The notes under the pieces were generated by a model. The model was not told the DNA's origin. It was given only the letters and a program-made list of their open reading frames with translations, and ran no database searches. Shown one piece after another: positions 3,563 to 6,939 of a stretch of DNA of 64,000 nt. The position numbers and the translations under genes were made by a program. Source of the stretch: Methylomonas sp. MK1 (lineage in GTDB: Bacteria > Pseudomonadota > Gammaproteobacteria > Methylococcales > Methylomonadaceae); the NCBI RefSeq assembly GCF_000365425.1, contig NZ_AQOV01000002.1:1426001-1490000 (forward strand), given 5' to 3'. Position 1 is the first letter of the stretch. Each line of letters opens with the position of its first letter.

Positions 3563-3919
3563 ATGAAAAAGAGCAAGAAAAACAAAAATCTGTGGCTACA
3601 AGAAGCTGAAATTGAGGTGGGAGATTTGTACTTCACCACCGCCCAGCAATACCGTGCGGTCTTGGCGATGAACGGCGATTTTTTAATTTACGCGCCTAGC
3701 TCCGAAGGCATGGAGCCATTAACGGCCGATAGCCAAATGCCGTTTGCAAACTCGCCCGCTAAAAAATGCCAGATTGCCACATTTGCGCAAAAAGAATACC
3801 AAGCATTCAATTGGCACGGCGCGTTGGCCGTCAAACACAAACTCTCGGCGTCGCAAATTGCCGAGGCCATCAGTCAATGTAACGCGAAAGCCCCAATCGC
3901 GGGCTTGATGGCTGAATAA
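3563..3919 (+). CDS. Hypothetical protein
   Basis: A 118-residue soluble protein I do not recognise. It starts with a very basic MKKSKKNKN tail and then a mixed alpha/beta sequence without signal peptide or membrane segment. The open frame extends further upstream into the preceding gene. The ATG at 3563 is chosen because the upstream part is only the out-of-frame shadow of the TerB-like gene. Confidence 0.6.
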   Translation: MKKSKKNKNLWLQEAEIEVGDLYFTTAQQYRAVLAMNGDFLIYAPSSEGMEPLTADSQMPFANSPAKKCQIATFAQKEYQAFNWHGALAVKHKLSASQIAEAISQCNAKAPIAGLMAE

Positions 3920-4114
3920 GCCACTTTACGATTACGCTGCTTGGCTAAATCGGTGTAAGCGCGCCACTTTGCTTGCGTGAGCGGAATGCCTTCCTATCGA
4001 ATCGGGGCCTAAATTTAACGTCGTCGCCGTGCCGGCGACGTCCGTTAATCGCTCTGGATGCCCGAATTCGCGGGGAAGACGGCGCCCGAGTATTTCGAGC
4101 GTGGTCTACCCGGG

Positions 4115-4453
4115 TTAGCTTCCCATATAGAGATAAAAGCCGCCCACTAACCACGTCAAAATTAATAATGTCCAAGGTAGCCAATGCTGCTGGTAGACAA
4201 TGATTGTCTCCATTTCCTGATCGTCCGGCTCGATCGTTTGCTGCTTTTCGCGCACCAACTTTTTGCGTTTTTTGTCCAGTTCCCGCGCCTTGGCTTTTTG
4301 CTGCTTTTTGTAGTGCTCGATACCTTCTTGAATGCCTTGGGCAATTAACTTGGTTTGCTCTTTGGTTTGGGCCGGACGCTGGTGGGCCCTGGCGATTTTG
4401 CCGGCTTCTTCCTGCGTTTGCTGGGACGGCTTTTGATAGGGGGTTTTACTCAT
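4115..4453 (-). CDS. DUF2956 family protein
   Basis: A 112-residue protein of the DUF2956 family, recognised from the conserved QRPAQTKEQTKLIAQGIQ and EHYKKQQKAKARELDKKRKK segments. It has a long charged, probably coiled-coil stretch (residues 30-75) and one C-terminal transmembrane helix (about residues 90-110, WLPWTLLILTWLVGGFYLYM). It is most likely a small inner-membrane protein with a cytoplasmic coiled coil. Function unknown. It faces away from its left neighbour. Confidence 0.85.
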   Translation of the reverse strand: MSKTPYQKPSQQTQEEAGKIARAHQRPAQTKEQTKLIAQGIQEGIEHYKKQQKAKARELDKKRKKLVREKQQTIEPDDQEMETIIVYQQHWLPWTLLILTWLVGGFYLYMGS

Positions 4454-4828
4454 CGCGATTCGATTAGGTGGTGCGGATTGCTTGATTCGGAGTCAGTATG
4501 TCGAAATCTTAGGAGCTTGTCATCAGCTGGGTGACGAAACGGCCGGGCTGGGCCGTGGCCCGGTTTGTTACCTTAACGTTAACATCCGACCACTTTGCCC
4601 TTGTCGCAATCAGTGAATTTAACTTACTGCGAAGGTGCAGGTAAGTCATTAAAGAGTTAAAGTTTGGCATTAACCTCTAACGTTTTCCTGATTACTCATA
4701 ACCCTCAGCCAATCTGAGCAAACGCCCCAGTATGGGAGGTGTATTTGAGAGACGTAAGGCAAAAAACGGCCAATTTCCGACCTTCGAGGTGTGATTTCTG
4801 AATGGCCGGTTTATGTCATAAATTGCTC
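4454..4828. other. Intergenic tail of the cassette array
   Basis: I see no gene here. The stretch holds an imperfect inverted repeat (4530-4572: GGTGAC...GTTACC with a GC-rich inner stem) that resembles a decayed attC. Several GTTA/TAAC core-like motifs occur, such as CTCTAAC at 4675. It may be the degenerate trailing end of the array to its right. Confidence 0.3.
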
Positions 4829-4914
4829 GTCTACGTTCGCCATAACCGGCAGCAAAAAGCGGTGCGGCGAAGGAGCTCCGCTTTTTACTGTCCGCGTTGA
4901 TGGCGTTGTTAGCT
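4829..4914 (-). other. attC: attC recombination site (degenerate outer box)
   Basis: Read on the minus strand, an R'' box GCTAAC is followed by GCCATCAACGCGGACAG, which folds onto CTGCCGGTTATGGC. The pairing is perfect apart from three single extrahelical bases (C, G, A), the hallmark of integron attC sites. An inner stem AAAAAGCGG/CCGCTTTTT continues the hairpin. The final R' box reads CGTAGAC where GTTAGAC would be expected, so one core base appears lost. The site lies directly downstream of the GIY-YIG gene, as for a cassette. Confidence 0.75.
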
Positions 4915-4941
4915 GATATTTTACTTTGGTAATAATTCATA

Positions 4942-6075
4942 CTATTCAACCCGTGAATATGTTTTACCTTCAAGAACTCGTTTAACCTGAGCAACGTCTT
5001 TTGCGCCAATACGCGTAAATATTTCTTCGGCAGAATATTCCTTGCCAAGCTCGCGTATCGCTCGTACTTGATCAGCCGATAACCTGCCATCTCGGCCACA
5101 AATTTGAGCAATGGCCCAATCATTATCTCGCCACTTTTCTGTTACCCAAGGCGCAGGGAGGCCTTTCCTAGGATGCTCTTTTAGCCACTCACTAACGATT
5201 CTGTCCCGCTCATCTGGCATGGGGACAACAGATTGTGATAACAAGCCATTCTCTCGTAGGTAACGCAAACCAGATTTACCACCCGGGATCATGTTAAGGC
5301 GGCGTTTATCTTCCCAATGGCCTTCGACTAAAAATTCTTCGGTTGCGTACAATTTTTCAAGATCATCAGTTATACCCATCACCTTGTGATTAACATAGGC
5401 AATTCGTCCTTTTTCCTTCTCTTCACGAAACTTCCTATGGAACAGTAGGGGGCTGCCTCCGTCGATCGCTCGTTTATGCTCTGACCACCGCTTTTGCCAG
5501 CTACGCGTAGTAACGCCTACATAAAAATATCCATCATTTGGATACGAGCCTCCATTTCCAAAAATATGTTGGTAAAGCACGTATGCTCTTTTTGGAAAAT
5601 GTTTTGGCGACAACAAGAAGTGTGCGGGTATAGAAAAGAGCAAACTTGGCTGTGTTATCTGACTTTCATCTATAGTTGTTTGGCCTTGCATCGCTGCTTG
5701 AATAAACACTGGATCAGTCACAACGTCGATAGAAATAATTGGCTGAAGCGCGCGCTCCTCTTCTTCGAGGTTCTTTCCAGATTGGTACTCTGTAGCAACT
5801 CCAACTGTACGATGAGCAGCCTCCAATTTCCGGAAAGGCGCAACAAAGCCTGGGGATTTTCCAAGAAAGGTTAATTGGACAACTGGAATCATCTGCCCCG
5901 GCTTCACTCGAAAGATGCCATTAGGATTCCTAGCTACTTTAATCCATTCCGCACCGTAGCTTGATGTTTGTATGAAATTATTTAGCAGAGTTTCCACCTC
6001 GCGACGACGAGAAATCATTGGTTTTGGAGCTAAGTGCTCCCACCATGACATGTTTATTGCTACGTCGCTTCGCAT
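4942..6075 (-). CDS. GIY-YIG nuclease-like protein with C-terminal HTH (integron cassette gene)
   Basis: A 377-residue protein. Residues ~165-255 resemble a GIY-YIG nuclease. YVLY stands for the GIY strand, FYVGVTTRSW for the YIG strand, then come an Arg and His (KRWSEHKRAI) and a downstream glutamate (ATEEFLVEGHW). The last ~50 residues (LSADQVRAIRELGKEYSAEE through VLEGKTYSRV) look like the helix-turn-helix repeat found behind homing endonucleases. The first ~160 residues are unrecognised. The gene starts 30 nt after one attC boundary and ends just before another, the usual packing of an integron cassette. Biological role unknown: a defence or mobile-element nuclease is possible. Confidence 0.7.
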   Translation of the reverse strand: MRSDVAINMSWWEHLAPKPMISRRREVETLLNNFIQTSSYGAEWIKVARNPNGIFRVKPGQMIPVVQLTFLGKSPGFVAPFRKLEAAHRTVGVATEYQSGKNLEEEERALQPIISIDVVTDPVFIQAAMQGQTTIDESQITQPSLLFSIPAHFLLSPKHFPKRAYVLYQHIFGNGGSYPNDGYFYVGVTTRSWQKRWSEHKRAIDGGSPLLFHRKFREEKEKGRIAYVNHKVMGITDDLEKLYATEEFLVEGHWEDKRRLNMIPGGKSGLRYLRENGLLSQSVVPMPDERDRIVSEWLKEHPRKGLPAPWVTEKWRDNDWAIAQICGRDGRLSADQVRAIRELGKEYSAEEIFTRIGAKDVAQVKRVLEGKTYSRVE

Positions 6076-6098
6076 TTCCGAGAGACCTTATTTGTAAC

Positions 6099-6167
6099 AG
6101 CTAACGTGAAGGTAACCGGCCTTGCGCGGCTTTTCGCGCAAGGTCCGTGTTGACCGCAGGGTTAGGT
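6099..6167 (-). other. attC: attC recombination site (well formed)
   Basis: On the minus strand the order is R'' CCTAAC, then GGTCAACACGGACCTTGCGC, an AAAA-containing loop, GCGCAAGGCCGGTTACC, and R' GTTAGC. The two arms pair perfectly except for three single unpaired bases (C, A, A) in the first arm, the diagnostic fold of attC sites. The stop codon of the HEPN-like gene (TAA) lies inside the R'' box. The R' box opens the next cassette, which carries the GIY-YIG gene. Confidence 0.88.
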
Positions 6168-6683
6168 TTCTTGAGCTGAGAAGAACGTGTCAATGTAGGC
6201 ACCATATCGGTTCTCGATTTCCTTCAGATACGCTTGAAGGTCGGGGGTAGTGGGCGCATCGATCTTGGCTTGGACTTGCCATTTAGTTACGAGAGTAGCA
6301 AATATCTCATTCACCATGTGGGCTTGACGAAGAAGCGACACGACGAACTTGCGAGCAACCAAGGCGCCATCTTCGGTGCTGAGATTCCAGCCCGGAATCT
6401 TGTTTTGGTTGTGAACGAAATCATTCCGCTTCTGCAAGAACTCGCTAAGCAGTTCTTCAAAAGCAGGAAATAGCTGTGCTCGCTCTTTGACCTTCCCTAA
6501 GAAATAGCCGAGCGCCTTCTGCCTCTCTTGCCCCTCAATATGCTGAAGCCTTTCCCACGTTAGCTCGGTATCGCCTTGCAGCACGAACGTTGTGCAGAAC
6601 TTGATGTTGCGTTCAACCGACTGGATATACGTCAGCGTGAACCCGATGAGCGAATAGATGTCGTGCTCGTTCGGTTGGTGCAT
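6162..6683 (-). CDS. HEPN-like protein (integron cassette gene)
   Basis: A 173-residue, all-helical cytoplasmic protein. It carries RNDFVH (Rx4H) at about residues 88-93, preceded by a helix and followed by another (FLQKRNDFVHNQNK). That is the catalytic-type motif of HEPN-domain ribonucleases and nucleotidyltransferase partners. The assignment is from motif and helical pattern only. The gene begins 18 nt after a GTTAGG cassette boundary, and its stop lies in the R'' box of the attC at 6099-6167, so it is a complete integron cassette. A toxin or phage-defence role is plausible but unproven. Confidence 0.65.
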   Translation of the reverse strand: MHQPNEHDIYSLIGFTLTYIQSVERNIKFCTTFVLQGDTELTWERLQHIEGQERQKALGYFLGKVKERAQLFPAFEELLSEFLQKRNDFVHNQNKIPGWNLSTEDGALVARKFVVSLLRQAHMVNEIFATLVTKWQVQAKIDAPTTPDLQAYLKEIENRYGAYIDTFFSAQET

Positions 6684-6695
6684 GGCGTGAGAAAC

Positions 6696-6920
6696 CTAAC
6701 AAGATATTAAGCTGTTAACCGTATATCTACCCGATAATGCGCTTCGATAAGGTAATTTATTGATCTGCATATGATCTTCCTTTCTATATATCATTCGACG
6801 ATGAAATAATGACCGGTAACAGCCTGACTGTTGCCATTGAATCATCTCAAGCGATAGTCCGCAACGGGTCGTTATGAGCCCTCGCTTAATTATCGCCATG
6901 TAAATCGAAGCCTCTGCCAT
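6696..6920 (-). CDS. Small ORF between two cassette boundaries
   Basis: A 74-codon ORF without recognisable family. Its start lies a few bases after a canonical GTTAGGC box (minus strand, at 6923-6929). Its stop TAG is embedded in the TGTTAGG that opens the HEPN cassette. It occupies exactly the interval of a cassette, but I find no good attC stem before the GTTAGG boundary. It may be a decayed cassette or may not be translated. Confidence 0.35.
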   Translation of the reverse strand: MAEASIYMAIIKRGLITTRCGLSLEMIQWQQSGCYRSLFHRRMIYRKEDHMQINKLPYRSALSGRYTVNSLISC

Positions 6921-6923
6921 CTG

Positions 6924-6939
6924 CCTAACCAGGGTTAGG
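6924..6939. other. attC-box remnant (CCTAAC/GTTAGG palindrome)
   Basis: The palindrome CCTAACCAGGGTTAGG places an R''-type box and an R'-type box only 4 nt apart. On the minus strand it reads CCTAACCCTG then GTTAGGC. The first ten bases match the start of the attC at 6099-6167. It looks like an attC whose central stem has been deleted, and marks the outer edge of the array. Confidence 0.4.

Follow-up and report, generated by a model that had tools for sequence, protein, structure and literature searches.

A candidate non-autonomous integron platform with an orphan attI-type site in Methylomonas sp. MK1

Organization of the locus

The window analysed in this study is a stretch of 64,000 nucleotides from Methylomonas sp. 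MK1 (NCBI RefSeq assembly GCF_000365425.1, contig NZ_AQOV01000002.1, positions 1,426,001 to 1,490,000 of the forward strand), and window coordinates refer to it. On its minus strand lie a leader with an attI-type site, a gene for a HEPN-like protein and a gene for a GIY-YIG-like protein, each gene being part of a cassette that is closed by an attC site. Judged from the alignment of fetched copies, a non-random set made up mostly of leader hits with higher scores or of paired ends, the two cassettes are part of a defined 2,105-bp unit with the following features.

4767..6871, minus strand: whole platform, read from 6871 to 4767; identity with the copy in genome G026 (locus L053) begins and stops exactly there
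6822..6871, minus strand: left end, leader positions 1-50; missing at both intI-linked attI sites
6696..6821, minus strand: attI-type region, leader positions 51-176, with the crossover G6700^T6699; placed by homology to genomes G007 and G118 and by the drop in identity among 48 leaders
6696..6770, minus strand: short leader ORF of 24 codons, whose stop overlaps the crossover
6105..6699, minus strand: cassette 1, crossovers taken from the sequence; also present in G026
6162..6683, minus strand: gene for a HEPN-like protein of 173 aa with an RX4H motif
6099..6167, minus strand: attC1; scoring model, covariance model R3 and hairpin fold
4834..6104, minus strand: cassette 2; missing from the G026 copy
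4942..6075, minus strand: gene for a GIY-YIG-like protein of 377 aa with a C-terminal helix-turn-helix
4829..4914, minus strand: attC2 with a degenerate R' box; scoring model and hairpin, weak with R3 and with the retrained model
4767..4833, minus strand: right end, 67 bp; alignment of fetched copies

An earlier sequence-only reading had set the right limit at 6939, which is not a boundary, the unit spanning 6871 to 4767. The window copy opens with CGACCC at its 5′ terminus and closes with TTGGCCG at its 3′ terminus. Most aligned copies have a right end that starts with TTAAAC and thereby supplies the missing part of the last attC's R' box; the window copy has TAGAC in place of this usual start. 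Termini with small variations are common to 20 tabulated units, whose flanks are mostly unlike. The termini in this table were placed with the help of terminal motifs, loci L052, L059 and L071 were left out of it, and L065 and L066 have no end in the list on which it was based. Several copies have 40-60 bp of similar sequence in common upstream of CGACCC, and the left boundary may therefore lie further out in those copies. A comparison of the left and right ends by eye, made with regard to terminal inverted repeats, gave a weak, imperfect similarity, and no target-site duplication was found (mean of 1.3 over the 20 units vs 1.5 in shuffled pairings). The two flanks of the attC pair in the window are dispersed repeats, which recur as pairs ~0.5-4 kb apart in other Methylomonas genomes. 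A second short dispersed repeat lies beside the right end at 4680-4747, with matches of 82-86% in several Methylomonas genomes. Elsewhere, leaders occur in tandem inside one locus (L131, L213), and right-end-like sequence was seen by eye ~33 bp upstream of the leader (L061, L067).

attC sites and search for an integrase gene

The attC sites were scored with a model that combines base pairing with position weights for both attC halves and allows a loop of 4-110 nt; its training set of 18 attCs excluded the window and came in part from leader loci. This model replaced a first version, a strict-R-box hairpin scan, which had missed attC2 and many terminal attCs. attC1 scored 62.1 and attC2 29.3, and they were the only hits of at least 16 on both strands of the 64-kb window, in line with the two minus-strand sites recognised in the sequence-only reading, the second of which has a damaged R' box. 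For the chance level, 20 dinucleotide shuffles (2.56 strand-Mb) yielded two hits of at least 26, with a maximum of 32.1. Each site folds into a long hairpin whose inner arm has three single extrahelical bases, with z values of -4.75 (6099-6167) and -4.56 (4827-4914), and none of 200 shuffles was as good. Because part of the first training set came from leader loci, a second training was run with 10 attCs taken solely from intI loci; it gave 62.9 for attC1 and 19.0 for attC2, and at the latter level roughly one hit per window would arise by chance. A covariance-model search, which had been proposed as a check, recovered attC1 across the whole genome with model R3 (42.4 bits, E 8.1e-6), whereas attC2 was not among its 13 matches at E<=10 (best 150 of 1,704 candidates scored). 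The R' box of attC2 reads CGTAGAC vs the expected GTTRRRY. attC1 is therefore a secure site. attC2 is degenerate, and the main support for it comes from its hairpin, from its place between the gene end and the platform end, and from the comparison with G026. A search against Rfam returned nothing at gathering scores. Further attC-like sites, in runs of up to four, were seen at four other loci of the host genome (L192, L193, L194 and L195), with no leader in the fetched stretch.

The host genome (5.23 Mb, 99.99% complete) holds no intI over the cut-off, its best single match to TIGR02249 reaching 82.7 bits vs 265, which extends to the whole genome the earlier statement that no integrase gene lies nearby. 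At 60 leader loci searched by tblastn, the window included and L092 apart, no IntI-like match was found.

A near-identical unit in another species

Locus L053 of G026, another species, is identical to the window at 764 of 771 positions, from exactly 6871 through attC1. Its right end lies directly 3′ of attC1, and cassette 2 with the GIY-YIG gene is absent. No similarity was found between the flanks of the two copies. The alignment supports movement of the unit and also that an entire cassette was gained or lost. Two candidate empty sites were rejected. In G011, sequences 95% and 87% identical to the window flanks are present but ~19 kb apart around other genes. In G018, a candidate for L053, 252 bp separate both flanks vs 1,583 in G026, and the site is not clean. 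The ~19 kb between the platform flanks in G011 (L052) contain hydrogenase-like genes and lie next to right-end-like sequence.

Homology of the leader to intI-linked attI sites

In G007, an intact intI (376 bits) adjoins a region that is homologous to leader positions 66-176, and 8 attCs follow at this locus. Positions 51-176 match the region beside a 5′-truncated intI remnant in G118; over 185 aa, this remnant shares 87% identity with the G007 integrase. The homology thus extends over ~110-126 nt and has the usual divergent layout relative to intI in both genomes, with the left end (leader positions 1-50) missing from both attI sites. By this homology to intI-linked sites, the platform is taken to contain an orphan attI-type site. 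An attI common to all Methylomonas intI loci was ruled out, as only L092 (G007) fell below E 0.1 among 28 scanned loci, which overlap in part; the G118 site was found separately. Locus L202 of another Methylomonadaceae genus carries, at 3826-4602, a platform-type attI beside a 5′-truncated intI remnant, a possible intermediate of intI loss.

Comparison of 48 leaders revealed a mean ungapped pairwise identity of 0.71 over the 16 bases that precede the crossover and 0.84 in TTAG, which falls to the chance level (<=0.28) directly past TTAG; further upstream the values are lower (0.37-0.46), in part an effect of comparing without gaps. In its layout, with CTAA or TTAA followed by six bases and GTTAG, the site resembles attI1. 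The minimal attI1 sequence is given as AAACAAAGTTRRRY (PMC12901181). In addition, the ATG of the short leader ORF is found at that position in 38 of 48 leaders, and its stop lies at -8, -1 or +3 relative to the crossover in 28 of 48. Mismatches by codon position (0.33/0.33/0.41) are weak evidence of coding; the positions are suggestive of a translation enhancer.

Distribution and cassette content of the platforms

The leader model R1 matched 33 of 37 Methylomonas genomes at E<=0.001, with at least 283 matches and a median of 8 across the 33 positive genomes, a count that includes partial matches and rests on 27 candidates scored per genome. At E<=1e-8 the leader was found in 76 of 237 Methylomonadaceae genomes (16 of 29 genera), and a class-wide sample gave 2 of 369 genomes, both Methylomonadaceae. 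The right-end model R2 found matches in 15 of 41 genomes, which all belong to a single genus. An intI over the cut-off was present in 53 of the 101 genomes of the relatives set and in 14 of the 37 Methylomonas genomes.

Within 2.5 kb of the leader, a same-strand attC of at least 24 was found at 31 of 57 leaders (52 sites, window included), vs 1 of 57 on the opposite strand and 0 of 57 after shuffling. The model trained on intI loci gave 32 leaders on the same strand, 2 on the opposite strand and 0 in shuffled sequence at threshold 24, and 33, 8 and 1, respectively, at threshold 20 (each of 57). The longest fetched arrays reach up to 9 attCs at threshold 18 (L123). In 33 of 42 listed copies, the start of the first ORF with 70 aa or more falls at leader position 168-213, close to the crossover or shortly past it. 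For the cargo scan, 96 of 107 proteins were kept, with duplicates and nearly all minus-strand ORFs left out.

Cassette-encoded proteins

The assignment of the cargo as a GIY-YIG-like protein with a helix-turn-helix and a HEPN-like protein, made in the sequence-only reading, agrees with our analysis, with Pfam matches below the curated scores. RX4-6H is the motif of HEPN ribonucleases, and it is found in the HEPN-like protein, in which R86, N87 and H91 are invariant across 26 sequences. Its match to Pfam HEPN_RiboL-PSP reached 13.4 bits vs the curated 28.4, and 11 of the 26 members matched at E<=1. The GIY-YIG-like protein matched Pfam GIY-YIG at 15.6 bits vs the curated 22.6, and 16 of 24 relatives gave a sub-threshold match at E<=1. 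A Foldseek search with its model found nothing at E<=0.001, and a sequence search against solved structures returned two unrelated weak hits for one cargo protein and none for the other.

The suggestion that the same genes would stand before attC sites elsewhere held for close GIY-YIG-like homologues, with an attC behind the gene at 3 of 26 loci vs 0 of 260 shuffles; at the other 23 loci no attC was detected at the 3′ end. Among the 101 genomes of the relatives set, the GIY-YIG gene occurs in one, the window's own. The helix-turn-helix part alone (4948-5229) matches Mesorhizobium, Rhizobium and Martelella plasmid sequences with 61-70% identity, which suggests domain reuse. Phage-defence cargo occurs in integrons, and the two proteins may be nucleases with defence-like roles; a defence or toxin function is plausible. 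That they act as one system is unlikely, since the G026 unit holds the HEPN cassette only. At two further loci, L070 (G012) and L071 (G026), ~4.2 kb lie between left and right ends, with a left end but no attI core; in these two genomes the platform ends enclose the three-gene Lamassu set LmuA, LmuC and LmuB (genes identified in L070).

Discussion

We consider it probable that the unit is a non-autonomous integron platform, that is, an attI-type site with its leader, split from any integrase gene and placed between two conserved ends, which is loaded in trans and is mobile. The shared termini and the homology to intI-linked sites point to such a composition. Cassettes would dock at the orphan attI through attI x attC recombination, with which the single orientation of attCs downstream of the leaders is consistent. 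The host genome having no intI over the cut-off, IntI would come from elsewhere and act in trans, most likely a relative of the G007-type integrase that the cell or its lineage contained at some time. The array would be read from the left, the leader driving expression of cassette 1 with the HEPN-like gene and then of cassette 2 with the GIY-YIG-like gene. The presence or absence of cassette 2 in a near-identical unit and the multi-copy spread suggest that the whole unit, its ends included, moved between chromosomal sites and species, presumably through an enzyme acting on the ends, in a dispersal system still to be found.

Several results count against the platform. No transposase for the unit was identified, and of 58 leader hits, 22 could be paired with a right end. 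At 26 of 57 leaders there is no same-strand attC of at least 24 within 2.5 kb, and of the 11 leader loci in the host genome, the one in the window among them, 4 carry a leader-strand attC of at least 22. An intact G007-type intI with a platform-type attI was found in one genome only. In the comparison of G026 with the window, the last crossover is 1 bp apart and the right end contains a 10-bp gap. A promoter scan of the leader gave a chance-level result, with no promoter-like match on the minus strand. Finally, L063, L064, L069 and L070 have left and right ends without an attI core.

It is unlikely that these loci are ordinary CALIN relics (attC clusters without an integron-integrase), in which chromosomal integrons had lost intI by deletion and were then immobile or copied by rearrangement. 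CALINs have been proposed to be degraded integrons (PMC9024848, PMC8618304), G118 holds a 5′-truncated intI beside a platform-type attI, and some intI over the cut-off is still present in 14 of 37 Methylomonas genomes. However, relics would not readily account for the median of 8 leader matches in the 33 positive Methylomonas genomes, for the conserved termini, or for a near-identical unit within dissimilar flanks in another species. Very unlikely is a leader that is an unrelated genomic repeat with a good off-target, attG-like site at which cassettes enter without any attI: non-classical attG sites can receive cassettes through IntI (PMC12901181) and in some copies the ends enclose different cargo where the attI core would be, but the ~110-126 nt of homology to the regions beside the G007 intI and the G118 remnant, in the usual divergent layout, and the L box, six bases and R box arranged as in attI1 argue against it.

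Beyond the probable platform in the window, the evidence is evenly balanced on whether the family as a whole represents non-autonomous mobile integrons, in which orphan-attI platforms with dedicated ends, served in trans by a rare cognate IntI and dispersed by a further system, would offer several independent first-cassette positions per genome in place of a single array. On that evenly balanced reading, orphan-attI platforms would be to integrons what MITEs are to transposons. An integron typically carries a single attI, located next to its integrase, and expression is most likely for the cassettes closest to that site (PMC9024848). Orphan attI sites scattered through a genome would provide it with several docking points ready for expression, and part of the abundance of integrase-less cassettes could be explained in this way. 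Trans loading and platform mobility also become directly testable in methanotrophs. No description of such platforms was found in the open-licence PMC literature searched, in which Methylomonas, integron and attC occurred together in one paper, on Methylococcus integrons (PMC8527097).

The platform shares features with several known systems. By default, IntegronFinder 2 assigns at least two attCs with no nearby intI to CALINs, and attI sites outside class 1 integrons go undetected by it (PMC9024848). Here, no intI over the cut-off is present and two attCs were found by the scoring model, but attC2 was not listed by covariance model R3. The sequence-only reading had classified the array as CALIN-type, and the likeness, attC cassettes without a nearby intI, stands; the platform differs in its orphan attI-type site, its two defined and conserved ends and its occurrence as a multi-copy, genus-wide family. 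Attribution to CALINs would be the outcome with attC-based software that does not search for attI, and single-attC units would by default go unreported. Of the components of a complete integron, attI (by homology) and attCs were found, and intI was not. Sedentary chromosomal integrons likewise have an attI-type site and attC cassettes in one orientation, with up to 9 attCs in the platforms (L123), whereas the platforms are without intI and occupy several dispersed sites per genome vs one. Insertions at attG, reportedly described by Loot in 2024, also place cassettes outside a classical integron, whereas the platform site is homologous to an intI-linked attI. Tn1331 is an example of intI-deleted arrays in transposons, and MITE-flanked class 1 integrons were reportedly described by Gillings in 2009. 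Like these, the platform would be a cassette array on a mobile unit, in their case sometimes without intI; unlike them, it has two ends that are dissimilar and form part of the unit itself, no target duplication was found in the platforms, and its distribution is genus-wide.
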